In this document: positions 23,346-64,000 of the stretch, piece by piece | How the letters are laid out: each line of letters begins with the position of its first letter | How positions within the stretch are numbered: position 1 is the first letter of the stretch | NCBI GenBank assembly: GCA_032622095.1 | Contig: CP136067.1 | Coordinates: 81,184,705 to 81,248,704 of the forward strand | Direction of reading: 5' to 3' | DNA: 64,000 nucleotides | From: Siphonodentalium dalli | Taxonomy: Eukaryota; Mollusca; Scaphopoda; Gadilida; Siphonodentaliidae | Program-made: the position numbers and the translations under genes | Notes under the pieces: model-generated | Seen by the model: only the letters and a program-made list of their open reading frames with translations | What the model was told of the DNA's origin: nothing | The model's database searches: none

Positions 23346-23868
23346 GGTTCCAACGCGGTCGAGAGGGACATTAATTTTGAGAGGATCTGTATATAGCATA
23401 TGTATTATTTCTTCCTGTATCCTTGTTGGCAATAAAGCCGAGCCACAAATTAATTCGTCGCTTGCCATTCACATTCTGATGATTAACCTATTGTCTTATA
23501 CTCGCTGGTCGTAAAACACCAACATCATAAATACGTGATATACAATGTCACCAGGAATATGCAGTGTTACAATAATGACTGCATCCAGGACCCAAAACAA
23601 AGGGGATTAAATGTAAAAACTATTTTATAATTACCTTTTGCTTTTTGGTGCAAAGTGACATAATCTACCTTGAGACACTATAACAAAAAAATTACTTATG
23701 CCAACCTCAATGAAAACTTTACAAAACATTGCCTTTTCTGACTGTCATATTTTAACCACGGTCGATTAACTGTTAGATGAAAGTTTGATTATTACAAAAA
23801 GAAGGTATTACCATTTTGTGAAAACCAGGAAAAAAAAACATAATCTTCATTATTCTTTCTCTTTGTAG

Positions 23869-43354: not shown

Positions 43355-43431
43355 ATGAGCTCGTCCGACTCTTCAATGGCAACTCCAGCGGATCATCGAA
43401 ATCGAGGAAACAAAGAAACGCATTGCGACAG
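43355..43431 (+). CDS. Hv1-like voltage-sensor protein, exon 1 (start)
   Basis: The first coding exon starts ATG (context TTACAATGAGC) and encodes MSSSDSSMATPADHRNRGNK + ETHCD plus two bases, ending at a donor G|GTAATC. The two leftover bases (AG) join the single base A that opens the S1 exon to give AGA (Arg), so the frame passes exactly into RFRQRVSKF. A short polar cytoplasmic N-terminus fits the Hv1 family. The ATG was chosen because the phase match is exact and a TATA-like promoter lies just upstream; a second in-frame ATG occurs at codon 8. Intron 1 is 6.7 kb and full of TIR elements. Confidence 0.65.
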
Positions 43432-43476
43432 GTAATCAATACATGGTTTCCAGTGTAAAGACGCTGTTGCTATATA

Positions 43477-44061
43477 GATCATGCCACGAATCTCTACTCT
43501 TGCTAACGAGCTATAGAGATCATATTCCACCAGGATAAAACCTGGGAACATTTAGAAGTTTTGACAGGGAACCTTATAAAGTCGAAAAATAACACGGGGA
43601 ATATATTTCTTAGTTATTATCTGTTCCTTCAAATAATGCATTTCACTGTAGGAGAAGGCCCCAACTCGAAATGGTATGGTTTTCTGTGACGTTTGAGCCG
43701 ATATCGCAATAACTTTAAATGAATTACCCAGGAGAAATTCCATAATTGTAAGCGACGCAAAGGAAAATCGCTCACAAAGTCACTTAAATCGTGAAATTTC
43801 GAGTTGGGACCTTCACCTACAGTGAAGTACATTATTAAGGAACAGATACTAAGAAATATATTCCCACGTTATTTTTTTCTACTTGATTAGGTTCTGATCT
43901 GTCAAAATTTCAAAAAGTTCCCAGGTTTTGTACTGGTTGAATATGAGCTCGACGAGCGTTAGCCAGTCTATGTAAACATACACTCAGATTCATACTTATA
44001 TGTGGGTATGTAGTTTACTCCAGACTGGGCGTTAGCCAGAGTAGAGATTCGTGGCATGATC
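43477..44061. mobile_element. TA-flanked TIR element containing HP4 copy 2
   Basis: GATCATGCCACGAATCTCTA + CTCT...GCTAACG is inverted at the right as CGTTAGCCAGAGTAGAGATT + CGTGGCATGATC, with TA at both ends. The interior holds a foldback (43556-43870) of the family seen at 38133-38515, so one element seems to have inserted in another. It lies in intron 1 of the Hv1-like gene. Confidence 0.85.
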
Positions 44062-44094
44062 TACGTTATTACAAAAAACCGGAGTTTAGTTTAA

Positions 44095-44275
44095 ACATAT
44101 TTATTTGTCTAAATTCAATAATACATAGGAAATAACACATATACTTGTATACAGACAATGGGATTGGAGGACAAGTGCTGACTCACTTATGAGTACCTCC
44201 TCTCCCGAGAGCATGTATAGGCGCGTTCCAGTCCCATTGCAATCAACTGACGCCTATATGTTGTAGTTTCACAAT
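44095..44275 (-). mobile_element. Possible LINE 3' tail, antisense
   Basis: On the minus strand the sequence runs GGAGGTACTCATAAGTGAGT, TTGTCCTCCAATCCCATTGT and ends AGACAAATAAATATGTTTAA, resembling a 3' UTR with AATAAA. A related stretch (GGGATTGGAGGACAAGTTCT, with a similar AT-rich neighbour) lies at 55250-55330. The class is uncertain. Confidence 0.35.
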
Positions 44276-44300
44276 TTTAACCCTGAATTTTAACCCTGGT

Positions 44301-44380
44301 AAGCGATGTAATCAAATGTATTTAAAATGTAACTGAAAATAAGCGATGTAATCAAATGTATTTAAAATGTAACTGAAAAT
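44301..44380. repeat. 40-bp perfect tandem duplication
   Basis: AAGCGATGTAATCAAATGTA + TTTAAAATGTAACTGAAAAT occurs twice, exactly. Confidence 0.95.
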
Positions 44381-44796
44381 ACTCTTTAATTTAAAAACTT
44401 GTTATTATTACAAGCTTCATAATTTGTAAATATGTCCTCCCCTAAATTGGCGGGAGTTTCCAAGTCATTTCTATAGCCACCATGTATGGCTATATACCAT
44501 GCACCTCTTCGCTTTTGAAAAGTTAACATATGTTGGTGCCCTACCGATTTCACACCAGCAACATATTATATGTACGTTTTGCACTCGAAAATGATATTGG
44601 ACCTATATATGGAGATATTTGTAGGACGGCATGATTATCAACGGAGGCAAATTTACCATGCAGATTTAGAATTTTATTTAGGATCCCGCAATGTCACTTA
44701 TAACGAAAGTTTACGTTTCCTTTGCAGAGTTATATAGCGACTAATTTAAAGAGCGGTGTCAATTGTTGGTTTATATAATTCTTATTAAACGACCGT

Positions 44797-45200
44797 TTGA
44801 TAAAAAAAAACGGTCGTATTATGCAAATGGGTTGTCCGCCGTCCATCCGTCGTCCATCCATCCGCTTTTGGTTTCCGGATGATAACTTTAGATTGAATCG
44901 AGTGAACTGAACCAAATTTGGTATGTTAGTTTACCACACCAAAATACAGATCGAGTTCGAATATGGGGTTCGTCCCAATAATTTTGACTGAATTATGCCC
45001 ATTTTTCTACTTAGATTTGTACCTGATTTGCGGTTTCCGGATGATAACTTTAGATTGATTCAAGTGAACTGAACCAAAATTTGTTTATTAATTTACCACC
45101 CCAAAATACAAATCAAGTTCGAATATGGCTTTCGTCCGCATGATTTTGACTGAGTTAAGCCCCTTTGTTTACTTAGATTTTACCTGATTTATGCGCCTGT
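44797..45200. repeat. Two tandem units of about 170 bp
   Basis: GGTTTCCGGATGATAACTTT + AGATTGA starts two diverged units (about 44871 and 45032) that share AGTGAACTGAACCAAA, TACCAC.CCAAAATACA, AAGTTCGAATATGG and ATTTTGACTGA. They are preceded by an ACGACCGTTT...AAAACGGTCGT stem. Confidence 0.8.
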
Positions 45201-45218
45201 GAGTTATGAATTATTCTA

Positions 45219-47334
45219 GTTGGAAGTAATTTTCATTGTATGTTGACTGGAGGGGGAAACAGGAAAAATTCCAAGAGATTTTCAACAAAGAATTTCTCTG
45301 GACCTTATCACATATCATCTTCTTCTTTGTATAAAGAATCTGAACAGTTATTGAGAAAAGACAATAACAATGGATTTTAAATTCATTTTTAAAGTTGAAA
45401 ATCGTTCCTACCGTCGTCGATCGAACAATTTGTCACAAAATATTCAAAATATCGACTCGTCAATTCAAATCAAAATTGGACGAAAACTTATTAACCAAGC
45501 CAAGCTATGTTCAAAACATATGCACGCGACCTGTACATGCATATATACCACTGCAGACTCTGTCTGGGTTGTAGTAACTTAAACGCCGACATCATAACAA
45601 ATCATATTAGTAACGACCCCATGTGTGCATTTAATCACTTCTTAATCGAATGCCCCCTATAAGCGAAAAGTAGGCGAAATTGGATCTGTGATATCATACT
45701 TTATACACCATAAAGACTCATATACTCAATGGATCTGAGAGCCTTAGTATTTCAGAAAACATAGCAATTGTTATGGCTGTAAAAAAAAATCATTATCCAA
45801 ACTAAACGGTTTTCGTAACTTGTGTTTACTTAGATGACAATTACTGCATGAGTTATGACGATCCACCCCTCCCGCCAAAATATCTCACTGGGTCTAGCGA
45901 AAAATAACATGTAACTTGACTAATCGTCGTGGTCATGCACGTTATCCTTATCTATATCTTCAATAATTATAATATATATATAGTCAGGCAGGACTGGCAG
46001 GAACATGACTTAAATATAAATATAAATGTATACACATTCCAAATCCATACGCATACAGATGCCTTAATATTACAGCACCCAATTTATATACCCCCACCAT
46101 GAAGCGACCCATGTGACGGGTCAAACCCGCACCGGGTAATATATCCACTTAAAATCCTCATGACTGGGGTATCACGACAATAATGGATATGGCTTTAATT
46201 CAGATTCCTTTGCTTTATGCCAAATCCATTTATTCCACAAATTTCTGACAAACCATTATTACATATTCTGTATGTCTATTTATTTGGAATAATAAAATAT
46301 GTTTGCATCAAAGTTGAAAACATGATTTTCTTTTTGCCACGTAGGCATACAGAACTGCCAAGTTAACTAATAATTAAACATAACAATTCAATTACCATAC
46401 AGCTTATTTAGTTATTTATGAGAGGAAGCTTCATTTGTGTCATAATATTTAGTTACAGTTTTAATTGCACGATTTGGCATCACACTTCTGAAATATTACA
46501 TTGAAGAATAAAGCTGCCACAACTATTTCAGCCCAATGAAAATAAATGTTGATATGCAGGGAACAACCAACAGGTAATATGCCACATTATTAGAGATATA
46601 CCTGGTCAGCTGGCGATTTTTCTATGGACCTATCATATGACCTAAAACTCATTTCAGCCCAAAGTTTTTTGATCAGCCTGCATGACATGACAATTCTGAA
46701 GTATAGAGCATTATTTATGTGTGGTTGTCTTTCCACATGAAAATAATGATGAAATTTCTTGAAACAAGAAACATTAAGTATTAAAGGTACTCAACCCGTA
46801 AAGAGGGTCCCCATCTCAACAGATTCCAACAACAACAATCCGATCAGAGGGTCCTATATTACTATTTCTTTGGCTTTGGGGATAAAAAATATTTGATTCG
46901 AGTCGAGGAACCCATCAAACAAAGCTCAGAGTTATTAGATATTGATTTTTCAAATTTGTTATGTTCTCGAGATGAGTACCAATAACTGCCGTAATCTGCT
47001 CTGGATGTGTACTCCAAATCTATTCAAACAGACAAGGATGAATAACTCTAAAATCAAGTGGTAATTTTAACGCAATTTTGACTGAGTTCTGGGCCAGATA
47101 GTATTCCCGATAATGAAAAATAATAGATTTCTAAAATCGATATCTAACAAATCTGAGCTTTGATGGGTGACTTCATCGACTCGAATCAAATATTGTTGAC
47201 CCCCGAAGCCATTGAAATAGTAATTGAGAAGAGTTTTATCGGGTTGAGTACCTTTAAGCATAACGCGCGTCAGGCTATTAAGCCAATTCCTCCCACCACT
47301 ATATATAGACTATAAAATGAAAATTACTTCCAAC
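45219..47334. mobile_element. 2.1-kb TA-flanked TIR element
   Basis: GTTGGAAGTAATTTTCAT at the left is exactly inverted at the right (ATGAAAATTACTTCCAAC), with TA on both sides. No transposase is recognisable despite the length. It encloses a second inverted-repeat element at 46781-47257. It lies in intron 1 of the Hv1-like gene. Confidence 0.8.
46781..47257. mobile_element. Foldback element with TTAAAGGTACTCAACCC ends
   Basis: TTAAAGGTACTCAACCCGTA at the left matches the inverse of GGGTTGAGTACCTTTAA at the right. The arms of about 190 bp also share AATATTTGATTCGAGTCGA, ACCCATCAAA, AAGCTCAGA and TTAGATAT. The termini contain TTAA. Nested in 45219-47334. Confidence 0.85.
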
Positions 47335-47336
47335 TA

Positions 47337-49000
47337 ACGCCATAACTGCACTTTTGAAAACAATCATACAGAGCTTCTTGGTTCCGGAAACATAAATTTG
47401 TTTTTAATATTTTCATGCCGAATGAGAATTTGTGTCAAATCTACAATATTATGAAATTTAAAAATTCATTTTAGGTCCGAACTGAAATATCAAGTTAAAA
47501 CTTTCGAGTTGGGACCTAACATTTTTTAATTTAAAATTTCGAGTTGGATCCACAAAATGTCGGACGTAAGCTTAACATTTGGGGCAATTTTTTATGTTAC
47601 AAATGTCACCAACACGTATTGTCTATACATGTAACTGAGACAGGAACAGTAAATTGGGCCTACTTCACACACGATATACGCTGTCATTCGGTTTGGTACT
47701 CGGATTTCCGTTTAGCGTTACCGGTTTAAATTTGTTTTGACTCACCACAAAGTGAAACAATATGAAAGGCATGAACTGTCGTAATATTATTGTTTTGGCA
47801 GGGGTGGGGTGGTAATACACATTTGCAGGCAGGCATGCCGGGGTGGGTGGGTGGTCAAAGAGGCAAAAACGCATTTTTGACAACATCATGCACATTTTCC
47901 ACTAAAGAACTTTTGATTGACTCTTCAATAAACATTTAAAAAATTGTGCCCATATTTAACATTTGTAATAGTTCAAAACATATTATAACTGCAAAAACGC
48001 CTTATTTATGTTACTGGGACCTCATATGGGCCTCAGTGGAGATGACATTAAGCCATTGGCATGTTGTATGTGTGGGACGGTGAAGTGAAACACTCCTTCC
48101 CGACACCCTTCCTTCGGAAAGAAGCTTCGAGAAATGTAAAACTGAAATAAATAAATTTGTCCTCGTGTAAATAAGATTAAGACATTTAAGCCTATACAAT
48201 TGTGTGCATGGGAAAAGAGCGAGCAACTGTCTCAAACATTAAGAGTGGCACAGAGAACGAGCGATCTCATTGGTTAATGGCAAAACAGATAACTTCACAG
48301 ATCAGAGTGCAGTGACATGTTTTGATAATTTCCCCACGCATTGTCAAACACAACTATTGTTGGAAAACTGAATACAGGCGATATATCCATAATTCAGTAT
48401 ACCCATCGCAATATAGGAGACATCATATTCGAGTTTTTATCAGTCAATGACATTAATGACTGATTATTCTATCGCATCTTGTTGTATTTATAACTATTTA
48501 TAAATACTACGATTCTCACAAACATTTACTGCTCCATATTTTAAAACGGTTTATTTCGTAATGTTGGGAATGCTGCGTCTTCGTAGAAATTAAATATAAT
48601 CGACAAATCTAGAGACGTACACCCATTAGGATTTTCGTTGGCTTTTCAAAGAGACTGCCTGATAGCCAAAACACATTTTCGGTTCATGTAATAGCTTGGA
48701 AAGGGGGGTGATATCTCACTGGATATGTAGGGGGTATTCTGGGATAAGTATAATTTGTTTGTCTATTTGTGTTTTTGTAAAATTGAATTCATATAGCTTA
48801 TAATAGTGTTTTATGTGCACCTATCAGCTTACGATAGGTTACTGTATTTGTCCGCTATATCAACACATTCGAATTCACATTTAGCAGTATGGAATTTGAC
48901 AGGAAGACCTAGCATACTCTCATATCAGCCGCACTCAAACAGTAACTTTTATTTACCTGAATTAAAAACCATCTCCGATACTTGAATTTATTAGCAATTG
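47337..49000. other. Hv1-like intron 1, nothing recognised
   Basis: Unique-looking AT-rich sequence with no exon, RNA gene or bounded element that I can support. Confidence 0.4.
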
Positions 49001-49150
49001 AATGCCAGGGGAGAGGAGCTCAGATAAGTTCGGCAACTTGTGCTCCGATCCTCTGTGCCCACAGACATATCATCATTGTTATATATCATCTGTGTAATAT
49101 GTATTGTATATTGTGGGTTACAATAAATATGCTCAAATCAAATCATACTC
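49000..49150 (+). mobile_element. Possible LINE 3' UTR tail
   Basis: CAACTTGTGCTCCGATCCTC, TGTAATATGTATTGTATATT and ACAATAAATATGCTCAAATC + AAATCATAC resemble the non-coding 3' end of a CR1/jockey-type LINE, with AATAAA followed by a short direct repeat (CAAATC). No RT coding remains. Confidence 0.4.
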
Positions 49151-49482
49151 TCATCATATACTGGAGACTCCAATGAATGTCAATGTATGTGGTAGACAAA
49201 ATTTATGCCTATCAGCCATTATTTGAAAACAATCTTCATATCTGCCTATAACCATTTTTTCAATTAAAACAGCAACTGAAACAGGTTAAACTGTCATTGG
49301 AAATAAAGGAGATAATTTCCCAGTCATAGTAGGAGTGATATCAGTAGGTGTTTCTGTGGTTTTTAGACCAAAATTAATGAAAATGGGTGGGGGTGTAACA
49401 AAATTGGGAGTAAAAATTATTTTTTTGCAGGTTTGTTGGGGGGTGGGTGGGATTGACATCCGGAATGACAGATGCACATACA

Positions 49483-49498
49483 CCCCCCCCCCCCCCCC
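49483..49498. repeat. Poly-C tract inside a G/C-skewed repeat
   Basis: A run of about 16 C, followed by a CACACACACACCC stretch. It forms the end of a GGTGGGGG/TGGGGGGTGGGTGGG region (49380-49460). Confidence 0.8.
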
Positions 49499-49804
49499 AC
49501 ACACACACCCTCACGAATACTTTCCTGTAATATTTTACTACCCGCTAGTTTTTACATAGTAAATATACCTCTACTCGATTGATCCCATTATTATTAAACG
49601 ACTTTTGTGGAATTATCATTGTTGAAGCCGAATAATTTTATCGCATATATAAATAACGTTTTGCTGTAATGCCGGGTCGTTTCAAATCTTACCGGGGCAG
49701 TATGAAGACTCAATTGTTATCGTCAAACGATTAATGCGGAATTTATCTTACCCGGGTTATGTTTGAAGACTGCCTCAGTATCGCACTAAAAAAGTATAAC
49801 TAAA

Positions 49805-50040
49805 TTTTTGTGCGACTCTAACCCAACGTTTAGTCAACCGAATCCGAATAAACGTTGATTGGGTTATGGCTGTTAACTAAACTAGTCGGGTTAGAAGAAA
49901 GTAACCAAACATTGGGTTATGGTAACCCAACTTTGTAATCAAACGTTGGGTTAAATTTAACAAACATTGGGTTTGAAGTAACTAAGAATGGGGTTAGAGA
50001 AAACCCAACCATTAACCCAACTTTGGATAACCCAACCATT
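49805..50040. repeat. Degenerate AACCCAA/TTGGGTTA repeat
   Basis: About fifteen imperfect AACCCAA(C/A) or TTGGGTTA words in both orientations with spacers of 8-20 bp, ending 55 bp before the S1 exon. It is not a telomeric array, because unit, spacing and orientation vary. Confidence 0.75.
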
Positions 50041-50093
50041 TTGACTAAACTTTATTTTGAGGGCTCACAATACCATGTACCATTTATTTTCAG

Positions 50094-50218
50094 ATTTCGC
50101 CAGAGGGTTTCTAAGTTCCTTCACACCCATGTCATTCTTATCATTGTGAGCACATTGGCCGTGCTGGACGCAATATGCGTGACTGGTCAGGCCATTGGCG
50201 ACATCCTCATTCTCCGGG
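50094..50218 (+). CDS. Hv1-like voltage-sensor protein, S1 exon
   Basis: Encodes (R)FRQRVSKFLHTHVILIIVST followed by LAVLDAICVTGQAIGDILIL + R. This aligns with S1 of voltage-gated proton channels. The Asp of VLDA is at the position of the human Hv1 selectivity-filter Asp112 and the later Asp at Asp123, but the intervening Glu119 position is Gln. Acceptor TTATTTTCAG, donor G|GTAAGT. It starts with one base completing Arg from exon 1 and ends with one base that makes Val with the next exon. The last 40 bases and the donor are the unit of a tandem array immediately downstream. Confidence 0.85.
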
Positions 50219-50650
50219 GTAAGTAAACAGTCTGTACACAAGTAGATATATAGAGTATCTCACGTGATCGTGTTGTGTGTGTGTGTGTGTGTGTGATTGG
50301 TCAGGCCATTGGCGACATCATCATTCTCCGGGGTAAGTAAACAGTCTGTACACAAGTAGATAGAGTATCTCACGTGATCGTGTTGTATGTGTGATTGGTC
50401 AGGCCATTGGCGACATCCTGATTCTCCGGGGTAAGTAAACAGTCTGTACACAAGTAGATAGAGTATCTCGCGTGATCGTGTTGTATGTGTGTGATTGGTC
50501 AGGCCATTGGCGACATCCTCATTCTCCGGGGTATGTGTGTGATTGGTCAGCCCATTGGCGACATCCTCCTCCGGAGCAAGTGAACAAACGGATCCTATCT
50601 CACGTCTGATTGGTCAGGCTATTGGCGACATCCTTATACCCATATTAAGT
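50181..50650. repeat. Tandem array of the S1 exon end plus its splice donor
   Basis: GATTGGTCAGGCCATTGGCG + ACATCCTCATTCTCCGGGGT + AAGTAAACAG recurs after the true exon end, with unit starts near 50295, 50393, 50493, 50541 and 50608. Units 2 to 4 keep the coding words and an intact GGGGTAAGT donor at 98-100 bp period, while the later ones degrade (GGGGTATGT, GGAGCAAGT). A (GT)n run and CTCACGTGATCGTGTTGT link the units. The array contains several perfect 5' splice sites. Confidence 0.92.
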
Positions 50651-52160
50651 CAGCAGACAAGCAGATATATCTTATCTCACGTTATCGGTTTGTGGGCATG
50701 TGCGCCGATGGGCACATAACAGAACAGAACTCGCTGATTTTAATCGTGGAAACTGATCTAGCCCAATCGGCTGACCGAATTCAAATATGTTCGTCACCGA
50801 GATTAATTGGAGCCAACGTTTTGTTCAAACTGCTTAAAATATTAGCTAGCTGTTCGTATATAGCAAGGCAGCAAGGTTTTTGTGTTGTTAATTTCTAGTA
50901 AATAACGAAACTAGACGAATTTGACAAAAAGAAAAAATAGACAGACAAACAGACACAAAACAAGCAAAACATGGTCGATTTACTTCCAACGGTCACAGTA
51001 TACATGCAGATTACTCCAAGAGAGGGCGTATAATAACTTATGGCGCGAAATTGGCAAACTGGTGTATTGCTTCTTGTAGATGTTGTTATATGGTGTATTT
51101 TAGCTACATGTTGTACTGTATTACCACTTGTGTGGCAAACTATATAACCCTATTTTATTTAACACGTGTGTAAATAAAACAACAAGAATATTCTTTCCCA
51201 CGAAAAGATGACTAAAAATGCGTTGGTTTGAAAGACAATGTGTAGCCACAAATGTGATTTGGGCTTGTAACAATGACCCTCCCAACGACAATGACTGGCA
51301 TGCAACAGTTGTGAGTTATCTCACAAAAAGAAAATACACTACAAATACACCTTACACACTACAAATGTCACAAATAGCATTATGAAGGTTATGCTGTTTC
51401 CGGGTTAGACTTTGTTAGTATGTTAGTATGTAACTCATTCGAGAGTCACCTTGATGTAAGGATTAATGTACCTGTCCGTGTCGGATTCGCGGTTGCTGCG
51501 CAAGCGGTTTCCGCATTGGGCAATTTTTCAGCGGTCTGCATCCGGGAAGTGCATGTGAACCAATGTATAATTGGGTTGATTTAGACATGCAGTGGCGCCA
51601 CAATCAGTTGTTCGCATCCGAATTTTCAACTAAATTCGCATTGGTTTCGGTTCAAATCAGATGACCAACTGTTGTAAATCAATCCACATTCGTTATTAAT
51701 GTCATAGCGATGAAACCTCTGACTGTATGGAAATGTTTAAGTGTATATTCGTGGGAAAACATCCAACGAAGGTGGCTATTCAATGTAAAAAACTAAAATG
51801 AAAATGTTCCATTACTATGTAATCCACGGTAAAACAAAATCAATGTTGACGCCGCCACATTCACACAAGGCAATCAACGCCGACAAATTAAGATTAAAAG
51901 AATTGGTCTATGTTGGTGTATGGTTACATTTCATTCAGCTCATGTTACAATAGATTTCAGATTCGTATACGTATCAACGACGCGTTCGATATGAGTTATA
52001 ACTATACAAAAGTTAGACATGTCATGCCTTTATTATTGGAAATTTCAGACCAAAGTAGTTTTAATTTTTTCGGCTAGTTTGATATTCAAACTAGTATTTG
52101 GTGTCATTTTTTTAAATTTTAGACCAACTGTCGAATATTTTAAAACTTTCGGTTAAATAT
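50650..52160. other. Hv1-like intron 2, first part
   Basis: No exon or RNA gene recognised. Contains a TACACTACAAATACACCTTACACACTAC-type local repeat at about 51337-51370. Confidence 0.4.
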
Positions 52161-52164
52161 TTAG

Positions 52165-52830
52165 AGGAGGAGGCGTTAGATTAACAAAATTCGAACCATT
52201 GGTGGGGAGGGGGTGCCTGGTTAGAAATTTCGAACCATTGATAGGGAGGGGTGTTTTTTGGTTAGAAATTTCCAACCATTGGTGGGGTGTGTTGGGTGTT
52301 TGGTTAAAAAATTCCAATCATTGTTGGTGAGGGGTGTTTGCAACTGTTTGGTTAGAAAATTCCAACCGTTGGTGTGGAGGGGGTGGGTGTTTGATTAGAA
52401 ATCTCCAACAATTGGTGGGGGAGGGGATGTTTGGTTTGAAATTTGCAATCATTGTTGGTGAGGGGGTGGGTGTTTGGTTTGATATTTCCAGCCATTGGTG
52501 GGGAGGGGTGTATGGTTAAAATTTTCAACAATTGGTGTGGAAGGGGGCGTTTGTTTAGAAATTACCAACCATTTATGTGGGAGGGGATGTTTGATTAGAA
52601 ATCTGCAACCAGTGGTGGTGGTGGTGGGGGGGGGGGGGGTTGTTTGGTTAGAAATTTGCAACCATTGGTGCATGGGGCAAGGAATGTTTGGTTAGAAATT
52701 TCAAACCATTGGTGGGGAGGGATGGGTGTTCGGTTTGAAATTTCCAGCCATTGGTGGGGGAGGGGGTGTTTGGTTTGAAATTTCCAACCATTGGTGGAAT
52801 ATCCGTCTGTTTCAAAGGGGAGGGGGTGAA
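52165..52830. repeat. G-rich minisatellite
   Basis: About 15 units of roughly 35-50 bp: TTTGGTTAGAAATTTCCAAC + CATTGGTGGGGAGGGGGTG. They are imperfect, with G-runs (up to 13 G near 52628) and strong G/T skew on the + strand, so G-quadruplex formation is likely. The ORFs through it are repeat artefacts. Confidence 0.93.
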
Positions 52831-53676
52831 GTAGAAAATACCAAGGTGGACGCGCCCCAACCGAGACTTCTAGTCACGTCTCTGATTCTATATTCAGATG
52901 CTTATTGCATTTTTATGTGTACCCACACCATGTCTAAATCTGAATCATAATAACCATATGTCGTTCGTCTGTCCGCATTGTCGTCTGTTCGGGCATGCGT
53001 CTGTCCGTAGACACATGTGCTATCCGATGTGATAACTTTGAATATTTTTTTATCGGATCGTATTCATATTTTGTGTGCAGATTTATGATGAAACACCTAC
53101 AAGTTGTATAGTTTTTGTTATCGGTCGGTTGATCAGTTCAGAAAATGTTAACAGGTTCCACCCATCACAGGGACATGCGATAACCCGAGTATTTCTCGTT
53201 CTGACCATCATCATATTTCATAATTTGGTTTATCATGGCACACTATACACATGTAATGATGTTGCTGATGATTGATTGGTTTTGAAAATGTTAACCATTC
53301 CAACCATCCAATTGAGACATGCCGTCAATAACTTAAATATTTTTTTCTGGTTATGATTAAAGAATGAAATAAAGTCACTAACAAACTCCCTGTTTTCGCC
53401 CTTCCTTTCTAGTTATATTAGTCTAGTCAAATTGCAGGGTCAGCCTAGAACACATTGTTAGTAAGATGATTTTGGTGTCAAAACATACGCAAATGTCCAA
53501 GGAACAACATATCCAAAATCCGCTAAAATCCGCTTTGGAGAAACTTTGTTAACCAAGATGGCATCCAACACGGTGCCTATGTTACATCAGTTCTCGAAAT
53601 AAGTCAGTATACGATATGTTATGGCATATGAATCGGCCTCTGGTTAGATGTAACCAATCTATGTTTGTTTTTGCAG

Positions 53677-54020
53677 TTGAGTTGCACGAGAAGCATGCCC
53701 AGACGCAACACGTCGCCAAACTACTGGAGGACCTCGTTCCACAAGTGTTCGACGCTTCAACATACGGTCATATCACATTTGAGAAAATCGTTTCCATTTT
53801 GCAAGATATCAGAGAGAGCGTATTGGAAGAGTACCGTATAAAGACATTTGGGCCGCGTTCGTTTTTCTCCCCGACCAATGTGACTCGGCACCGGAGGGAC
53901 GTTCTGTTCTTGTCTGATCATGACGTGCACATGAACCAGTATGGACACGATTTACTCCATGGAATTTCACACAAATTCCACATGATTAGTATGGCGATTC
54001 TTTCAGCTCTAATGTTTGAG
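53677..54020 (+). CDS. Hv1-like voltage-sensor protein, S1-S2 loop and S2 exon
   Basis: Encodes (V)ELHEKHAQTQHVAKLLEDLV, a helical stretch TFEKIVSILQDIRESVLEEY, then FFSPTNVTRHRRDVLFLSDH + DVHMNQYGHDLLHGISHKFH and the start of S2, MISMAILSALMFE. The loop between S1 and S2 is about 98 residues, against roughly a dozen in human Hv1. It is His-rich (six His within SDHDVH...KFH), holds an NVT N-glycosylation sequon and an RHRR furin-like site. KFHMIS keeps the Zn2+-binding His140 position, and MFE keeps Glu153, but the Phe150 charge-transfer position is Leu. Acceptor TTTTTGCAG, donor GAG|GTGAGT; it ends in phase 0. Confidence 0.85.
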
Positions 54021-54179
54021 GTGAGTTGGTATAACATTACACAAAGGAGAAGACGAAGATGAAGATCTGAGTGTATATGTAATTGGTAGTCATATTACAA
54101 CGCTCTGTAAGGTTGTCATAATGTTAGCTCGAGTGTCACATGTGAGCCCGGGGACATTGTTTCTATAATAAATATGCAT

Positions 54180-54363
54180 ACTGAGTCAGTGCCTCAACAA
54201 GAGGAAATAACAGGAAATTATATAGACAAAAGTTCAACAAGAATGTTAGAAAATACTTCTTCACCCAGACCATATCGTTCAACTAAAAGCTCTGGATGAA
54301 TTTAAGACTAACATAGACGCTTACTTCTATCACTTGAAGTATGATTACGAATACGTCAATTGA
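54180..54363 (+). pseudogene. LINE ORF2 C-terminal fragment, decayed
   Basis: NKNVRKYFFTQ, then after a frame break ALDEFKTNIDAYFYHLKYDY + EYVN and a stop, match the usual C-terminal pattern of CR1/jockey-type LINE polyproteins (RKYFFSQR...WNSLP...LxxFKxxLDxxW). It is frameshifted or stop-broken after KYFFTQTISFN. It lies in intron 3 of the Hv1-like gene, right before the histone fragment. Confidence 0.55.
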
Positions 54364-54384
54364 TTTGTTGTTGTTGTGTTGTCT

Positions 54385-54465
54385 GGTGTGACCATCGCCC
54401 AGGGTGGTGTTCTGCCAAACATCCAGGCTGTCCTCCTCCCCAAGAAATCTCAGAGCAGCAAGTAA
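54385..54465 (+). pseudogene. Histone H2A C-terminal fragment
   Basis: Encodes [20 protein letters not shown] + KSQSSK and a TAA stop. It matches the invariant C-terminal docking region of H2A almost residue for residue, with a variant tail. Only 26 codons are present; upstream is a TTG repeat and LINE-like sequence, and no histone 3' stem-loop was seen within the next 60 bases. It is a captured 3' piece of an H2A gene, not a functional gene. The intact codons suggest a recent event. Confidence 0.85.
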
Positions 54466-55157
54466 ACAGTTTGCTACTCAAACACAACAACAAAATATTT
54501 CGCATATGGGAACAATTGCTATCTAAATATTAATATTACAGTAGCATTACCGATCAAAGTCAAATTAGATACCAATGTTTAATCAAAACTTGACGGTAAA
54601 ATATTGGAAATGGTCAAAGGATTTAAAAATATCTGAAAATCATATAATTAAGGAAGGTCAACTTAGACTAAAATATTTGAACTTACTACACACAGATGTT
54701 TGTTGACAAATCACTGTACTAGTTTTGTTTAAATAACATGATCTCAACACGAGAAAATTCGTCAGTGGAGAGCTATCAATAATGAATATAAAAGTGTGCA
54801 TGTCCTTCTTATAGTGGTGATGTTTTAAGGCTTTTATATTGTTTGCATGTTTATACCGCGAGTGCATTGGGTCGTTCGTGGATCATGTTAGTATTTATCT
54901 TGTTTTGATATGATTCCGCATCTGAGACGACGTTAAAATCTTCTTGTTTCTCAAAATGCATCGATGCCACCCTCTGCCAAAATGTTATACTGTTTAGCAG
55001 AGAGACATGCTAATATAAGAGAGAGATATGTTTATTCCTCCAAATATGGAGACCATTATGGTATATCCCATTACAATCAACGCTATTAAAATATGGTCTA
55101 ATTAGACTGAGTCACACCACAAAGAGTCGAATTTTCATATTTTGATTTTATTTTCAG
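54466..55157. other. Hv1-like intron 3, remainder
   Basis: AT-rich and non-coding. Nothing bounded was recognised before the next acceptor. Confidence 0.4.
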
Positions 55158-55211
55158 ACGTTCTTAAAAGTATTTGCAATGGGAAAGAAAATATTAAAGC
55201 ACAAAATAGAG
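55158..55211 (+). CDS. Hv1-like voltage-sensor protein, S2 end/S2-S3 linker exon
   Basis: A 54-nt phase 0-0 exon after TTATTTTCAG encodes TFLKVFAMGKKILKHKIE and ends GAG|GTGAGT. With the previous exon S2 reads ALMFE-TFLKVFAM. The Lys of FLK is at the Lys157 position of Hv1, and KHKIE aligns with the HHKFE before S3. The small size makes it easy to miss; the phase match on both sides and the clear alignment support it. Confidence 0.82.
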
Positions 55212-56610
55212 GTGAGTCCAAATTGCAATTGCCCCAGTATCCTACCCTTTGATTTAAACATATTTTTATTAGTATTATGCATAAATAATACATTACATAT
55301 CAGGGATTGGAGGACAAGTTCTGTGAAACTTAGATGGACCTCCGCTCCCTACAGATCATACATGATGATGAAACATAAATATAACAATTTATTTGGATTT
55401 ATATCAGGTTTTGGTAGGGCTATATATATTTTGAGTGCGTGAGTATAAGATATTACATGGGGTGTTAACTAGTTTAAATCGGCGGTCTGATGGGGGTAAT
55501 GAGTATACTTATACATACATATGACTAGTATGACAACTGGCAGCATATATATGTATAATGTGGGGAAAGCGTTAGTTGGTGTGTTTTTGGAAATGGTAAA
55601 TAGAAAGGGGTCTTGTTTATAGTATATCAGTTGCATTTATGTTGTAATTATATGGACACATGTATACACGATATAAGAATGAACAATTGTATACTGCATA
55701 CACATGATACACTGCCTGCATATAGCGCACATGCAGTTGTATGTAACTCCAGAACTTTGACCAACACTGGGCACTGGGTGGATTCAAAGGCAAGTAAGCG
55801 ACTCAGTGATCTCACTTATTTATTCATTTGTTGTCTACATTTCCCATTAAAGATAGCAGTATATTTTGACGGCACAGAAATGACTTAATTTAATGATTTA
55901 ATCGTCTGTGTCTTTTCTTCACGTCGTTCACATATTGGGACTGATATGTGGGCGTTGTACTTTGTTTCTCGGAATTTGAGACAATAATTTCACACAGACC
56001 TGTGCATGTGGCTAATCAACGGTTGTTTATAACAGTCGCCTCTAATACATCTCTGTCTTCTCATAAAATGTCACAACGTGGTACAGGCATTGTCATCTGC
56101 GCGCAACGAACTACTTTATTAATTTACTTGTCAAAATCTTGCCTCCGGCGACGCATTCTTGTGTGCAAAGATTTGAAACAACAGCCCTTGTTCTCATCTA
56201 TTGTTGGCTTTAGATACGGTGCATTGTTTCGCCGACGTGTTCATTTGGACATGTGATATAAATCTTGCCGAGAGTTGTTCAGATTACATTCGCCATATAG
56301 AGGGGAGGTGATCAGGTGGGACACAATGGTCCCTTGGTAATAGGATTAGACGGGAACGCATACTGCAGATGCGTTCTCGTATGTTCGTGCTGAGCGGATG
56401 ATCCTAATTCTTCGGAACCCCGGGAAATCGCGGACATAATCACGAATGGGGATTCGTTTTGCAGGTAAGCCGTCTTATGAATTTTCGGGGGCGCTGGTGT
56501 TAATCAAAGACAAGGGGAATATTCGAATAACTTTTAAAAAGCGTACATTTTTAGTCATGGTGATGCATATACACAGAAATTGTCTCACACAAATAACATA
56601 TTCTTAGAAA

Positions 56611-56680
56611 TATAGGGGTAATATAGGGGTAATATAGGGGTAATATATGGGTAATATAGGGGTAATATAGAGGTAATTAA
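56611..56680. repeat. 11-bp tandem repeat TATAGGGGTAA
   Basis: Six consecutive units with two single-base variants (ATGGG, AGAGG). Confidence 0.95.
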
Positions 56681-57189
56681 GCTCATACTAAGGCCACAGA
56701 TATCAACTTCAAATGAATTATATGGAAGGATCGGCAAATAAAATGAAATTCTTTCATCAGATATGCATGTGTACAATGAACACTAACTTCTAGCTGAATA
56801 TAATATTGAATGTTAAGAGGGAGTAAAGTGGTAACATTTGAATAGGGAATTTGGTGTTAATTTTGGGGATAAGAATACTCAATACTTACAAAGCGCAGAA
56901 GACCGCTTCGTGTCTTGTTGGAAAGTGTGAACACATCTTTAGTGACAACGCGAAGTGGATTTTTTTTTATAAAAATCATTCACAGTACAAAATGACTAAT
57001 GCATTCTGGGGGAAAAACAACTGCTATGTGGCCCAACCGAGTTACGCTGCATGTGATGTTCGTGGTACATAATGCATCCCCTTGATCATCAACGCTGTCT
57101 ACATATATGTGCAGATGCGAAACGCATGCATGAGTCTGGATTGAGCTTTTTAGAGTATATCTTCAGAATACAAAATTGAGCCTTATGTC

Positions 57190-57700
57190 ATTCACACACG
57201 ATCACATGTGCACATTGCTCGCGAAATGGTTTCTAGATTGCGCGTGAGCAACCACATATTGGCATGCAATAGAAAAAGGGAGGCACGGACAACCAGTAAT
57301 ACCATAAGAAAATCGCTGTGTTCCATGTGTGACAAACAATGTGTCGAATCTGAAATGCATTTTATAATGGAATGTAACGCATACGATGATTTAAGATCTA
57401 ATTTATTCAGCGAAATTGAGAAACACGATAGTGAATTCAATAATTTGAATGACGCAGATAAATTTGCACTGATTATGAGAAATGATAATACTAAATTAAA
57501 CAAGGTTTGCAACACAGTCCGGTTATTCTTCCTTCGGCCGAATAAAAAAACTTGAAGAAATAATTGAGGGAATGTTGATAAGAACTGTGTTTGTTATAAT
57601 AATATATTTATGTATTGCTCATTTATGTATATGATACTCATCAGTATCTTGCAACTGCCCATTGAGGTGCCCGTTTTGCAATAAATTATTGTATCATGTA
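57190..57700 (+). mobile_element. LINE C-terminal zinc-finger fragment and 3' UTR
   Basis: An open stretch to the TGA at 57553-57555 encodes HIAREMVSRLRVSNHILACN, then CSMCDKQCVESEMHFIMECN and AYDDLRSNLF. C-x2-C-x(9-11)-H-x4-C after a RLRxSNH helix is the C-terminal zinc-binding region of many animal non-LTR retrotransposons. The following 140 bp ends GCAATAAATTATTGTATC, like a LINE 3' end. RT is absent, so it is a 5'-truncated insertion in sense orientation in intron 4. Confidence 0.75.
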
Positions 57701-57761
57701 TACAGTCGCTTTACATTACACTCACATTTATACATGTACTATATGACCCCATGTATTCCAG

Positions 57762-57900
57762 GTTTTCGATGCATTTGTTGTTACTGTATCCTGGATACTG
57801 GATGTTTCTCTCTGGAAGGGGCTTTGGTCGCAGCCAGGGGCGGACGCCGCGACGATTCTTGCGATCATGTTACCGTGGAGGGTAATCCGAATCGTCAACA
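57762..57900 (+). CDS. Hv1-like voltage-sensor protein, S3-S4 exon
   Basis: Encodes VFDAFVVTVSWILDVSLWKG + LWSQPGADAATILAIMLPWR + VIRIVN plus one base. VFDAxVVxVSxxLD is the S3 signature of Hv1, with both Asp174 and Asp185 positions kept. S4 reads MLPWRVIRIVN against LLRLWRVARIIN in human Hv1: the second and third gating arginines and Asn214 are present, but the first (Arg205 position) is Leu, followed by Pro. The S3-S4 loop lacks the Zn2+-binding His193. Acceptor ATTCCAG, donor ACA|GTAAGT. Confidence 0.87.
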
Positions 57901-57984
57901 GTAAGTCTCCTGTACATAATCTTGTCCGATGTTCACCTGTTCTTTACTAAATAGATTATCCCGGCAGTTATCGAAGCATTCCAT

Positions 57985-58135
57985 GGGAATCATTGATTAT
58001 TCATTTGGAGAATGAAATATAAGCAGAGGGCAGACAGGCAAAATGGTCATTTCAGGAGGGAAATGTTCAGATAATAAGTTGAGGAAACTACTCGTCGATG
58101 AGTATTTAGTAAAGAAATGGTTTAAAGCAGTATTT
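57985..58135 (+). repeat. Dispersed repeat family F, diverged copy
   Basis: ATTCATTTGGAGAATGAAAT, AGGGCAGACAGGC, GGGAAATGTTCAGATAATAA and ACTACTCGTCGATGAGTATT match the F copies at 28-37 kb with more substitutions. Confidence 0.65.
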
Positions 58136-58379
58136 TTTCATTCAATGCCCCATTTAATTTGACGCCGAAATATACATAATTTTCTAAGCCATTGTTTGGC
58201 TTACGAGGTGAATAAATTCTGAAAATAAAATTGCAATCGTCATTCGCATCGTGCGAGACAAAATGGCATATCAATTATACTCTTTAATGTAAATTTACAT
58301 AGCTCAGGCCAACTTCAATGTGATTTAATTGGCAATATAAAAAGTACATTATGTGAGCTATGTGTATGAAGGGTGGGGT

Positions 58380-58615
58380 TGATCGGGGAGGGGCGGCTAC
58401 CCTCAACTTTGTCAAAATGTTCAACAGTCCGAAATTTCATGCCTGACCCAATATTAGTTGGACATTTTACACCACTTATAGGTTGAAACTGTTCTCATTG
58501 TTTGATTTTTCAACAAGTAATGAGCGGAAATTGTGTTGGTTTTAGACCTTAGCATATTTGTTCTACTTTTGGTCAAAATTTTGGTCTGAAATGCTTTGGC
58601 TCAAGTGGGGGGGGG
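58380..58615 (+). repeat. Dispersed repeat, relative of 41740-42090
   Basis: G-rich ends enclosing GTTTGATTTTTCAACAAGTA, GTTGGTTTTAGACC and TTGGTCTGAAAT. In inverse orientation to the copy at 41.8 kb. Confidence 0.6.
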
Positions 58616-58667
58616 GGGATGCATTAGAAATTTGACAATCCACAATTTATGTATTCATATCCCATTT

Positions 58668-58751
58668 TTAACTCATTCAGTGCCGGCGACGTATATATAC
58701 GTCGCCCGAAAAGCGCCAACCATTTGCCGGCGACGTAAATATACGTCGCCC
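58668..58751. repeat. Paired GCCGGCGACGTATATACGTCGCC palindromes
   Basis: GGCGACGTATATATACGTCG + CC at 58685-58706 is a perfect 22-bp palindrome, and a one-mismatch copy lies at 58729-58750. The left context TTTTTAACTCATTCAGTGCC resembles the TTAA-anchored ends of some piggyBac-like elements, but no partner end was found. Confidence 0.6.
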
Positions 58752-59890
58752 AGAACATCTCGCTTAAAACATGCTCTACTGGCCGAAAAACTCACAATTT
58801 CATTATTGGTGTACATGTTTAAAACACTGTGGATTACAAGTCACATCTTGGGAGAATTTTCATCGGGGGGGGGGGGGGGGGTGAGTGGCGGCTGGTATGT
58901 TAATACGCGCATGCGTATATCCAATTTGTAAACCATGGCGTAGCCGAAGATATCTCCGTTCAAACGACGTATCGGGCAGCTCCGTACGTTGAGGCATTCG
59001 GGAGATAGAGCCGCCTGAATATAGGTGGTGAAAAATTGTGTGTTTTGTGGGCGTGACTAAAGTCAACGTATACAGCGTCCAGATCTGTTAATTGGAGACC
59101 GATTTTGATTGCATAAAAGGCGATTACTATCAAGTCGGGCATGCCCTAATCCATAGAACACTTGGTTTGTCCCCAAACGATCGAGGAACACCGATTTGGA
59201 CAACGCGCACATTACGTCAATCAAAATATGTACCTTAAGGGGTTCGCCAAATTACAATGATAAATTACTACAGGAAACATTGTCAATATATTGCTCTTAC
59301 ATGTTTTAAGATATCGAACGGACATTTGGTAGTGAGGGGTTATTCGATGTGCTGAATTCGATTGAATTGTCACCGAGTAACTCTGATTGCCCAAATTTGT
59401 GTCATTGACGCCATACATGTAGCTACGTGTAGGCCTACCGCATGAACGGGGAACTATAGTATACGCCGCACAGCGAAAGTACGATTGTTGTAGGCCTTTA
59501 GAACGGACACAATTGATTTTCAAATTGTCTTCAGTTTTGCCATAAATTTGCTTTTCTAGGAAATCGGTTATTGTAAACGTCATCCCATTTAGAAAATTCG
59601 TTAGGTCTCACTAATCACCCCCCCCCCCACAATTCCGATCTTTGCCATAACATAATGCTAGGTTATTCCACCATCACAATTAATGCCTAAAACTACACAG
59701 AATATATTAGTTAGATGGCAACATAAAACAACACATTTGCAATTTCATACAATCGGTGTTAATTTGAAGTATTCGTTGCCATGGCAACGTGAAAGTTTGG
59801 AGCTGTGATGAACCTGTATTACCGGAATTGGACTTTTAAAGAACTTCTTGAGTAGGGCCTATACTATCAATGTTTGCTGTCAATTCAAAG
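58752..59890. other. Hv1-like intron 5, unique part
   Basis: No exon with S4-continuation coding was found. Contains a poly-G run at about 58864-58880 and a poly-C run at about 59619-59628. Confidence 0.4.
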
Positions 59891-59894
59891 TAAA

Positions 59895-61147
59895 TATGAA
59901 ATGAAATTTTGCATGAATGTTGACATTGACATGTAGATGGGAACGAGTCATTTTGGGGTCATTCGGCCAAAAAACATGGCCGCTGGTGGCCATCTTGGAT
60001 TTCAAAATTCAATCCATTGGTGCGGGCTACAGGTCGTAATGTTCGTTTGATCATCATGAAATTTGTCATGGATGTTAATATTGACATGTAGATGGGAACG
60101 AGTCATTTTGGGGTCGTTCGGCCAAAAAACATGGCCGTCAGCAGCCATCTTGGATTTTACTCTTTGCATGACTAAATCATTTGGCGCAGGCTACAGGTCG
60201 TAGTTTTGATCGGAACTTCATGAAATTTGTCATGGATGTTAACAATGATATGTAGATGGGAACGAGTGATTTTAGGGTTGTTCGGCCAAAAAACATGGCC
60301 GCCAGCAGCCATCTTGGATTTTACTCTTTGCATGACTAAATCCTTTGGCGCGGGCTACAGGTCGTACCTTTGGTCTGATCTTTATGAAATTTGTCATGAA
60401 TGTTTACATTGACATGTAGATGGGAACGAGTCATTTTGGAGTCATTCGGCCAAAAACCATGGCAGCTGGTGGCCATTTTGGATTTCAAAATTCAATCCAT
60501 TGGCGCGGGCTACAGGTCGTACTGTTTGTCTGATCATCATGATATTTATCATGGATGTTAATATTAACATGTAGATGGGAACGAGTCATTTTGGGGTCGT
60601 TTGGCTAAAAACATGTCCGCCAGCAGCCATATTGGATTTTACTCTTTGCATGAATAAATCCTTTGATGCGGGCTACAGGTCGTAGCTTTGGTCGGAACTT
60701 CATGAAATTTGTCATGTATGTTAACAATGACATGTAGATGGGAAACGAGTCATTTTGGGGTCGTTCAGCTGAAAAACATGGCCGCCAGCAGCCATCTTGG
60801 ATTTTACTCTTTGCATGACTAAATCCATTGGCACAGGCTACAGGTCATACCTTTGATCAGATCATTATGAGATTTGTAAAGGCTGTAGATGGGAACAAGT
60901 CATTTTGGGGTAATTCGGAAAAAAACATGGCTGCCAGTGACCATTTTAGAATTTACTCTTTGCATCAATAAATCCTTTGGCACACCATAATCACCACATC
61001 CCTGATCCGATCATTATGAAACCTGTTATGAATGTTGATATTGACATATACATCTAGTGTTACTTAGACATTTCAATTAGCACTTTTCCTATTCCTCCAT
61101 TTACTGTCGACCATTAAATTATTCCCCTACCTAAGTTGAGCTACAGT
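59895..61147 (+). repeat. Tandem-array element R, copy 2 (3' part)
   Basis: Seven to eight units of about 160 bp, each with GACATGTAGATGGGAACGAG, CATTTTGGGGTC, TTCGGCCAAAAAACATGGCC, CAGCAGCCATCTTGGATTTT, ACTCTTTGCATGACTAAATC and GGGCTACAGGTCGTAC. It ends AAGTTGAGCTACAGT like copy 1. The 5' terminus (TAGCTCAAC...GAGCTAT) is absent. Its end lies 30 bp before the putative last exon of the Hv1-like gene. Confidence 0.88.
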
Positions 61148-61176
61148 GTCATTGACACTTTCATTTTTGTTCGCAG

Positions 61177-61328
61177 AGACAGTGAGGTGCGAACATATTT
61201 CTAGAAAGTTCAAAACATTTTCGAAAGATCCTGGTGCATATAAAGCATGTCCGGCAAAACAGTCGAGCGTTGTTCAATTGAAAAACAATTGCACTCAAAA
61301 ATGTGAATGTGGAAACATGGATTATTAA
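61177..61328 (+). CDS. Hv1-like voltage-sensor protein, tentative last exon
   Basis: After TTTTTGTTCGCAG, an exon starting AG completes a Lys codon with the leftover base of the S4 exon. It encodes (K)TVRCEHISRKFKTFSKDPGA + YKACPAKQSSVVQLKNNCTQ + KCECGNMDY and TAA. KTVRCEHISRKFK loosely resembles the KTRSERQLLRLK after S4 of Hv1, but the hydrophobic GIIISV and the long coiled coil that dimerises Hv1 are missing. The tail is Cys-rich (five Cys). If right, the protein is about 296 residues and probably lacks the coiled coil. The acceptor lies next to repeat R, so it could be fortuitous. Confidence 0.4.
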
Positions 61329-62730
61329 AATGCCTTATTAATTAACTGGGAAAACAAGCTTTCCCATTCTCAACGCAATAGACAATTTGATATGTCTCGA
61401 AGATTGTAGATCAGTCGCTAATGGGGGAATGTTCTCATTGACAAACACACTGTTGATCAAAGACTAGCCAACGGTCGCGTGTCCTTTATTTAATTATGTC
61501 GGTATTTGTAATTATGTCGTTCTAGTCACACTAGTAATTTAACCCAATTGGTATATAATATAGCATCATCGGCAACCAATCGTTTTCACATCCTTTATAT
61601 GAAAGATATGTCTATATTTTTCTATACATATGTCAAACAACTCGTACGTATTACTAAGACTAGCATTAGTGTAATAGATCAACTTGAGATAACAGATATT
61701 CTGTCCGTACATACAACTATTTCAGCGATGGATGAACTGAAATTTGATATCTAGAGTTTTGTTATCGATCTCTCTCAAACGAGGGGCCAGCACCCGTGGT
61801 TCAAACTGTTGTTGGTAAGACACCACAAAACATGCCAAATTTGTGATGGGCGCAAGTATAGGCATCTCCACTGAGTGCATTCTAGTTAGCTACATGTATT
61901 CATGGCATATGGTAATTCGTCGGTGTCCAATCGGATATTACATTGTTTACCAGATCGCACGCACGGATGGTGATCGGTAGTTTGGTCGCCTCGAGCGATA
62001 TTGCCACGACAACGCAACACAACCAGAGCGTGAACATAATAAGTTTGATAAGATGTATGACTGTATATAGTCGCACTAAAATTGTTCAGGTCACATTAGC
62101 ACGAACTTTCTAGTACTTTGATTGCTTCTTCTGTGAAACAGCTATATTATACATGTATATACTTCAACAACACATTTCCCTATATTATCATTGTGGATAT
62201 TCTTGTATATGAAAATTCTTAATTCGTGATAACTGTTACCTACTGAGAAACACAAGCCTTATTGATCTCGGTAGGGAGCTTTCAGCTACCGCGAATTAAG
62301 AAACACCAAAATATATCGGTTTCTGGTATGAAAATGACGCTTTCCAAATTCAAATTCATGGTGTGATATACATATTACTCAATCAGACACGTTAGTCAAG
62401 TATATCAGAATTATGAATGAGATCTCGTACTCTGCTATAAGATGAATATACAATTTTATTAATCAATAATTGTGTCATATAGGGGTAAACACATTTTTCT
62501 TCAATGTGCGAAAAACCCGTTGTATAGAAATGTCTACTAAGTCAGCTGACTAAGTGACGGAAGTGACGAACTTCAGCTCTAAACGGATTTCCCCTCTCGG
62601 ACAATAAAACGCGTTCAGAAGTTCCTTGTCAGTCTTTTACTGATATGGCAACAATAAAGAGCGTTTACCCATTTATGTGCAAAACGTATTTACATGTACT
62701 ATTAATTAAACCTTGAGTGAATGCAGCCTT
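61329..62730. other. Downstream flank of the Hv1-like gene, nothing recognised
   Basis: No clear poly(A) signal near the tentative stop and no recognisable gene. A short inverted pair ACTGAGAAACACAAGC... and CGCGAATTAAGAAACACC near 62240-62310 suggests a small degraded hairpin (AATTCGTGATAACTG / TACCGCGAATTAAG). Confidence 0.4.
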
Positions 62731-62732
62731 TT

Positions 62733-64000
62733 TAGCTCAACGTTTCTTTGTAAAGTTTGAGCTATTACCATGGCTTTGTCGTCCGTGTGTGCGTGTGTGC
62801 GTAAGGCGTCGACAATACAGGCTACAGGTCGTACCTTTGATCGGATCATTATGAAATTTGTCATAGCTGTTGACATCAACATTTGTACCGGAATGATTTA
62901 TTTTGGGGTCATTCGGAAAAAAATATGGCCGCCAGCGGCCATCTTAGATTTCAAAATTCAACCCATTAGCACGGGCTACTGGCCGTACTGTTCGTCTGAT
63001 CATCATGAAATTTGTCATGGATGTTAATATTGACATGTAGATGGGAACGAGTATTTTTGGGGTCATTCGGCCAAAAAACATGGCCGCCAGCTTGGATTTT
63101 ACTCTTTGTATGACTAAATCCTTTAGCACGGGCTACAGGCCGTACCTTTAGTCTGATCATCATGAAATTTGTCATGGCTGTTGAAATTGGAATGTAGATG
63201 GGAACGAGTCATTTTGAGGTCATTCGGACAAAAAACATGGCCGCAAGTGGCCATCTTTGTTTTCAAAATTCAATCCATTAGCACGGGCCACAGGTCGCAT
63301 TGTTCGTCTGATCATCATGAAATTTGTCATGGATTTTAATATTGACATGTAGATGGGAACGAGTAATTTTGTGGTCATTCGGCCCAAAAACATGGCCGCC
63401 AGCAGCCATCTTGGATTTTACTCTTTGTATGACTAAATCCTTTAGCACGGGCTACAGGTCGTACCTTTAGTCTGATCATCATACAATTTGTCATGGATGT
63501 TAAGAATGACATGTAGATTGGAACAAGTCATTTTGGGGTCATTCGGCCAAAAAACATGGCCGTCAGCAGCCGTCTTGGATTATACTCTGTGTATGACTAA
63601 ATCCTTTAGGACAGGCTACAGGTCGTACCTTTAGTCTGATCATCATAAAATTTGTCATGGCTTTTGAAATTGGAATGTAAATGGGAACGAGTCATTTTGG
63701 GGTCATTCGGGCAAAAAACATGGCCGCCAGTGGCCATCTTTGATTTCAAAATTCAATCCATTAGCACGGGCCACAGGTCGTACTGTTTATCTGATCATCA
63801 TGAAATTTGTCATGGATGTTAATATTGACATGTAGATGGGAAACGAGTCATTTTGGGGTCATTCGGCCCAAAAACATGGCCGCCAGCAGCCATCTTGAAA
63901 ATTTTACTCTTTGTATGACTAAATCCTTTAGCACGGGCCACAGGTCGTACATTTAGTCTGGTCATCATAAAATTTGTCAAGGATGTTAACAATGACATGT
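62733..64000 (+). repeat. Tandem-array element R, copy 3 (5' part, runs off window)
   Basis: Starts TTTTTAGCTCAACGTTTCTT + TGTAAAGTTTGAGCTATTACC like copy 1. At least seven units of about 157-160 bp then follow, with TGTAGATGGGAACGAG at about 63035, 63193, 63350, 63512, 63675 and 63830. Two alternating unit types exist, ending CTTGGATTTTACTCTTTG or TTTCAAAATTCAATCCATT, so the higher-order period is about 315 bp. It continues past the window end. Confidence 0.9.

Follow-up and report, generated by a model that had tools for sequence, protein, structure and literature searches.

The 64,000-nt stretch of the genome of the scaphopod Siphonodentalium dalli analysed here (contig CP136067.1, positions 81,184,705 to 81,248,704; hereafter the window, with coordinates given as window positions on the plus strand unless stated) holds most of a gene, locus W, that very probably encodes an Hv3-type ("unconventional") voltage-gated proton channel of the lophotrochozoan kind. 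Its voltage sensor (segments S1 to S4) carries the Hv3 motif xPWRxxR, as LPWRVIR in the exon at 57762-57900, and an S1-S2 loop of about 100 residues within a single exon. The RxWRxxR pattern of conventional Hv1 is absent, Leu occupying the position of the first S4 arginine (R1), and the general marks of an Hv channel are present, namely the S1 Asp (in VLDA) and the second S4 arginine (R2) with the S4 Trp (the WR of LPWR). The original prediction of a divergent proton channel with altered gating pointed in the right direction, but the residue mix on which it was built is largely not unique: the replacements recur in sister loci of the same genome, and LPWRxxR with a long S1-S2 loop marks the published Hv3 channels. 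The sequence therefore appears to add a member to a known type, and since the gene fits that type, its unexpected residue pattern, for the most part a family trait, is largely explained by the literature.

Structure of the gene from S1 to S4

The voltage sensor is encoded by four plus-strand exons with GT-AG borders and compatible phases throughout, which a candidate first coding exon may precede. The loop between S1 and S2 was taken as extracellular from the Hv1 topology, and residue numbers follow human Hv1. Letters A to G denote sister loci introduced below.

43355-43431, plus strand: candidate first coding exon (MSSSDSSMATPADHRNRGNKETHCD) with an ATG, a GT donor and a matching phase
50094-50218, plus strand: S1 exon with Asp112, Gln at 119 and Asp123; relatives of this exon at A, B, C and E
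53677-54020, plus strand: exon with the extracellular S1-S2 loop (~100 residues) and most of S2, including His140, Leu at 150 and Glu153
55158-55211, plus strand: exon with the end of S2 and the S2-S3 linker, including Lys157, His168 and Glu171; related exons at A, C and G
57762-57900, plus strand: S3-S4 exon, VFDAFVVTVSWILD ... LPWRVIRIVN

Relatives of the loop exon were found at A, B and C, by profile at E and G, and by eye at D. No pore domain occurs in the exons read. The window protein retains Asp112, Asp123, His140, Glu153, Lys157, Asp174, Asp185, R2, the third S4 arginine (R3) and Asn214. Glu119 is replaced by Gln, Phe150 by Leu and R1 with the residue after it by Leu-Pro, and there is no His at the place of His193; the list of kept and lost residues given in the original prediction was thus correct. 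Its chain of five exons over 43355-61328 held for the four S1-S4 exons, but six exons are needed rather than five, and the last one proposed is repeat DNA. Exons other than those proposed emerged at the 3′ end only, and no exon restoring R1 was seen in the genomic sequence.

The exon at 43355-43431 is possibly the first coding one. Searched against the genome, it returned only its own match, and the DNA preceding the paralogues showed no counterpart, a weak test that spanned about 9 kb at A and 0.7-0.8 kb at B, C and E. This comparison, of W, A, B, C and E, yielded repeats and matches at chance level only.

Decay of the locus into an Hv3-family pseudogene was considered, as its introns contain satellite arrays and a repeat insertion and the donor end of its second exon is multiplied as 98-bp tandem copies. 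It is highly improbable, since the S1-S4 exons and their successor have open frames, matching phases and GT-AG borders, and the residues common to the family are retained. The multiplied segment, at 50179-50533, comprises the 3′ end of the S1 exon and its splice donor in tandem copies of about 98 bp, which leaves spare donors behind the true one.

Probable identity as a proton channel

A phmmer search of the earlier protein model against the PDB sequences gave 5oqk ("Voltage-gated hydrogen channel 1", human Hv1) at E 1.5e-9 and 3wkv (labelled "Ion channel", which we take to be a mouse Hv1 chimera) at E 8.1e-9. Correction of the C-terminal exon improved these values to 8.1e-11 and 1.1e-9, respectively, and the two entries were the sole matches at E up to 10. 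The identification as an Hv1-like S1-S4 sensor is thereby borne out, together with the related exons at seven other LPWR loci. No better match to another voltage-sensor family arose among the PDB sequences, a set not checked for a TMEM266 chain and beside which no TMEM266 or voltage-sensing phosphatase sequence was compared. Like human Hv1 (5oqk), the window protein has the S1-S4 order and Asp112, Asp123, His140, Glu153, Lys157, His168, Glu171, Asp174, Asp185, R2, R3 and Asn214; unlike it, it carries Gln at 119 instead of Glu, Leu at 150 instead of Phe, Leu-Pro instead of R1-x and no His at the place of His193, and its loop of about 100 residues contrasts with the short loop of the human channel. 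The 3wkv chimera shares the S1-S4 order but deviates at some of the residues common to the other two.

In PMC10377628, molluscan Hv channels are divided into conventional ones with RxWRxxR/K and unconventional Hv3 with xPWRxxR, a very large S1-S2 loop and larger intracellular domains. Bivalves are credited there with as many as eight unconventional Hv3 per species, and the S4 proline is noted also in a few brachiopods and phoronids. AcHV3, the Hv3 of Aplysia californica, has LPWRxxR; it is a proton conductor that is leaky when closed, and its proton conductance-voltage relationship is shallow, at about 60 mV per e-fold (PMC10377628). Compared by description, the window gene resembles AcHV3 and Hv3 in its LPWRxxR and its long S1-S2 loop; large intracellular domains are not seen in the part read, the gene being incomplete or putative at both ends.

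Several points weigh against the Hv3 assignment. A Pfam search with the whole protein (earlier model) at E up to 10 returned no family. Of the large intracellular domains expected, there is one conserved exon past S4 and none further in the DNA compared, and the N-terminal exon is putative. One passage of PMC10377628, inconsistent with its other passages, gives Lys rather than Leu for R1 in Hv3. The match was made to a described motif and architecture, not by alignment with AcHV3. At the same threshold, Pfam also found nothing in the loop exons of W and A, in the proposed last exon or in the true next exon described below.

It could also be argued that the protein acts only as a sensor or scaffold, with a TMEM266-like function and no proton conduction, as Gln119 for Glu, Leu150 for Phe and the loss of R1 alter several gating residues. 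However, the selectivity residue Asp112, R2, R3 and the S4 Trp are all retained, the PDB search yielded only 5oqk and 3wkv, and AcHV3 with the same LPWRxxR is described as conducting protons (PMC10377628), which makes a non-conducting sensor unlikely.

Sister loci in the same genome

A search of the whole genome (2.23 Gb in nine contigs) with the S1-S4 query yielded 25 matches with E values of up to 10. Grouped by position and exon reading, 20 of the 25 rows fell into eight LPWR loci and 4 into three loci with the conventional RLWR; the remaining weak row (C3:168505425, E 1.5) is unassigned.

LPWR locus W (the window): C7, 4 rows
LPWR locus A: C7 75.82-75.83 Mb, 4 rows
LPWR locus B: C7 75.71-75.74 Mb, 3 rows
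LPWR locus C: C7 179.51-179.56 Mb, 4 rows
LPWR locus D: C7 179.74 Mb, 1 row
LPWR locus E: C7 169.89-169.90 Mb, 2 rows
LPWR locus F: C7 29.95 Mb, 1 row
LPWR locus G: C7 121.66 Mb, 1 row
RLWR (conventional) locus: C4 53.43 Mb (C4:53431404), 2 rows
RLWR (conventional) loci: C3 180.56 Mb (C3:180562776) and C3 182.54 Mb (C3:182538586), 1 row each

With human Hv1 as the query and a threshold of E 1, five matches were obtained. Three are the conventional loci; the others are the window (E 0.008) and a weak hit on C9 (E 0.02), the locus of which has a strong Ion_trans match. Leu-Pro at R1 is found in all eight C7 loci and in none of the three conventional ones, which share the S3-S4 pattern and the S4 WRxxR with the window gene but, unlike it, keep R1. 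The C4 gene reads S1-S4 in a single open frame of 219 residues, with 54% identity to the human query.

Of the five LPWR loci with S1 read, four (W, A, C and E) have Gln at position 119 and one, B, has Glu. Leu or Ile occupies position 150 in all six LPWR loci tabulated (W, A, B, C, E and G), compared with Phe in the C4 gene and in human Hv1. Position 153, contrary to a neat conservation, varies: B has Gln there and E has Val. An 11-sequence tree was restricted to loci of this genome and human Hv1 and based on 123 columns, in which unread exons appear as gaps. A branch with a bootstrap of 100 divides the eight LPWR loci from human Hv1, the C4 gene and one C3 gene; the other branches had values of 45-81.

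The two C3 loci (182.53 and 180.56 Mb; sequences L016 and L017) are near-identical where read and lie in opposite orientation about 2 Mb apart, representing either a recent duplication or an assembly duplicate. At locus F (L013 3763-5067, minus strand; C7 ~29.95 Mb), the end of the S4 exon, ILACFLPWRVIRVVN, matches 15 more times, some of the copies being altered. These repeats form a minisatellite of about 86-88 bp, the second repeated exon end among these Hv loci.

The 3′ end of the gene

The exon at 61177-61328, with which the earlier model closed, is a decoy made of repeat DNA and not the true last exon. When the 296-residue earlier model was searched against the whole genome, 132 matches were obtained on all nine contigs, mostly to residues ~240-296, that is, the last exon. 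At the DNA level, 2020 candidates were obtained for 61177-61328; each of the 40 that were scored was a match, one being the window itself and the other 39 lying elsewhere at 92-95% identity. In five copies fetched, the similarity starts at 61164 (four copies) or 61158 (one) and reaches 61897 in the longest. The features around the decoy are as follows.

59901-60980, no strand assigned: array of a 164-bp satellite within the intron that follows S4; another block, 62820-64000, continues past the window end
61133-61170, plus strand: duplicate of the true splice acceptor; over 38 bp it is 97% identical to that acceptor, which lies 3.4 kb further on, beyond the window
61164-61897, plus strand: interspersed repeat enclosing the proposed last exon; its right end may extend further

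The 164-bp satellite thus flanks the interspersed repeat on either side. The true next exon starts 534 bases beyond the window end (L018 534-649, window-equivalent 64534-64649) and continues 57762-57900 in frame as RIVN-SFVLAIQEKDSVALKIVKQLYRGTIKRGDELERKVEPYM, so the gene extends past the window. This exon directly matches counterparts downstream of A, B, C and E; that of G matches those of C and E, and that of F matches that of G. None was seen at D within the stretch compared. A search for more 3′ exons in 19 kb at W, 12 kb at A, 6 kb at C and 3.4 kb at E (B, D, F and G being left out) gave repeats and chance-level matches only.

We infer that the intron end was duplicated and that a mobile repeat was then placed beside the acceptor copy, the two together producing the decoy. 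The nearly intact acceptor copy at 61133-61170 and a phase that fits through to the stop codon would also suit a genuine alternative transcript, encoding a channel with a short, unrelated C-terminus. This is very unlikely, given that the exon is repeat DNA by the matches above and that the conserved downstream exon retains both frame and homology.

A furin-type motif in the S1-S2 loop

A motif scan of the loop exon revealed a furin-type site, positioned from the exon coordinates.

53886-53897, plus strand: RHRR followed by Asp, within NVTRHRRDV, a context that includes an N-glycosylation sequon

The pattern RX[KR]R occurs in four of the six loops found by profile (E-values 1e-54 to 3e-5), as RHRR-D in W, REKR-D in A, RKKR-D in B and RTRR-S in C, and is missing from E and G. 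In these four loci, it begins 29 to 31 residues ahead of the loop end as delimited. The D loop, recognised by eye (profile E 2.9) in the DNA upstream of the S4 exon of D and terminating in an S2-like stretch, has RDKR-S and RFRR-A. No loop exon was found at locus F. Shuffling each loop gave a chance of 0.0007 to 0.03 for the motif and of 0.2 for the long D loop. For at least five of the seven loops (D included) to carry it, the shuffle chance is 1e-8 with the loops treated as independent; as they are paralogous, this figure shows only that composition cannot account for the motif. An N-glycosylation sequon is present in all seven loops. The apparent S1-S2 loop of D (L027 4567-5694, plus strand) spans about 250 residues in one exon and has several multibasic sites. 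An EF-hand-like reading of the loop, made by eye, was rejected for want of conserved ligand positions.

It is possible, though doubtful, that Hv3 channels are synthesised as proproteins whose loop is cut at RX[KR]R by a furin-like convertase. S1 and S2-S4 would then sit on separate chains of one voltage sensor, and proton flow would be tuned or turned on by the cut together with the His-rich stub before S2. The predicted site may be inherited without use, and two paralogues lack the motif. The loop exon, modelled from six sequences, gave a poor structure (mean predicted local distance difference test score 55, predicted template modelling score 0.29), too poor to reveal exposure of the site; the furin-type site falls at model residues 70-73, in the least confident stretch (60-85), and a short helix is drawn at 72-78, overlapping part of it, which is weak evidence either way. 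Hv1 undergoes N-terminal cleavage in human sperm, and the term "post-translational cleavage" occurs once each in some Hv1 papers, so that proteolysis of Hv channels in general has precedents. Regarding the loop, no report of cleavage was found in the open-licence literature as judged by listings and the start of abstracts, and the main text of PMC10377628 does not discuss it under any word starting "cleav".

Proposed mechanism

Protons would pass through the voltage sensor itself, as in Hv1. The loss of R1 would take away a charge from the sensor, as well as the closed-state contact of R1 with Asp112, and Leu in place of Phe150 would alter the hydrophobic gasket. From these two changes, shallow voltage dependence and some proton leak at rest would be expected, as measured for AcHV3 (PMC10377628), and the window protein is accordingly predicted to be a proton channel of that behaviour. 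The human mutant R205W is reported to leak and is likened to AcHV3 in PMC11853527, where simulations let R2 assume the Asp112 contact across the gasket. The C-terminal part would be carried on in the conserved exon outside the window, at the place of the Hv1 cytoplasmic helix.

Other features of the window

15561-17297, plus strand: open frame of 579 residues with a reverse transcriptase domain (RVT_1, E 5.8e-12)
23844-24209, plus strand: open frame of 122 residues, by eye similar to a short-chain dehydrogenase end; the only Pfam match, to DUF1776, was below threshold

The 579-residue frame has, by eye, a GIY-YIG-like end and is therefore perhaps a Penelope-like element.

Significance

The duplicated splice acceptor beside a mobile repeat provides an example of how exon-by-exon reading can mislead. 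The furin-type site, if used, would be a new way of regulating a voltage sensor. Overall, the window gene enlarges a family, described only recently, of natural proton channels that lack the first gating charge, and the presence in one animal of eight LPWR loci on one contig and three conventional loci elsewhere offers a natural series for the roles of R1 and of the Phe150 gasket.

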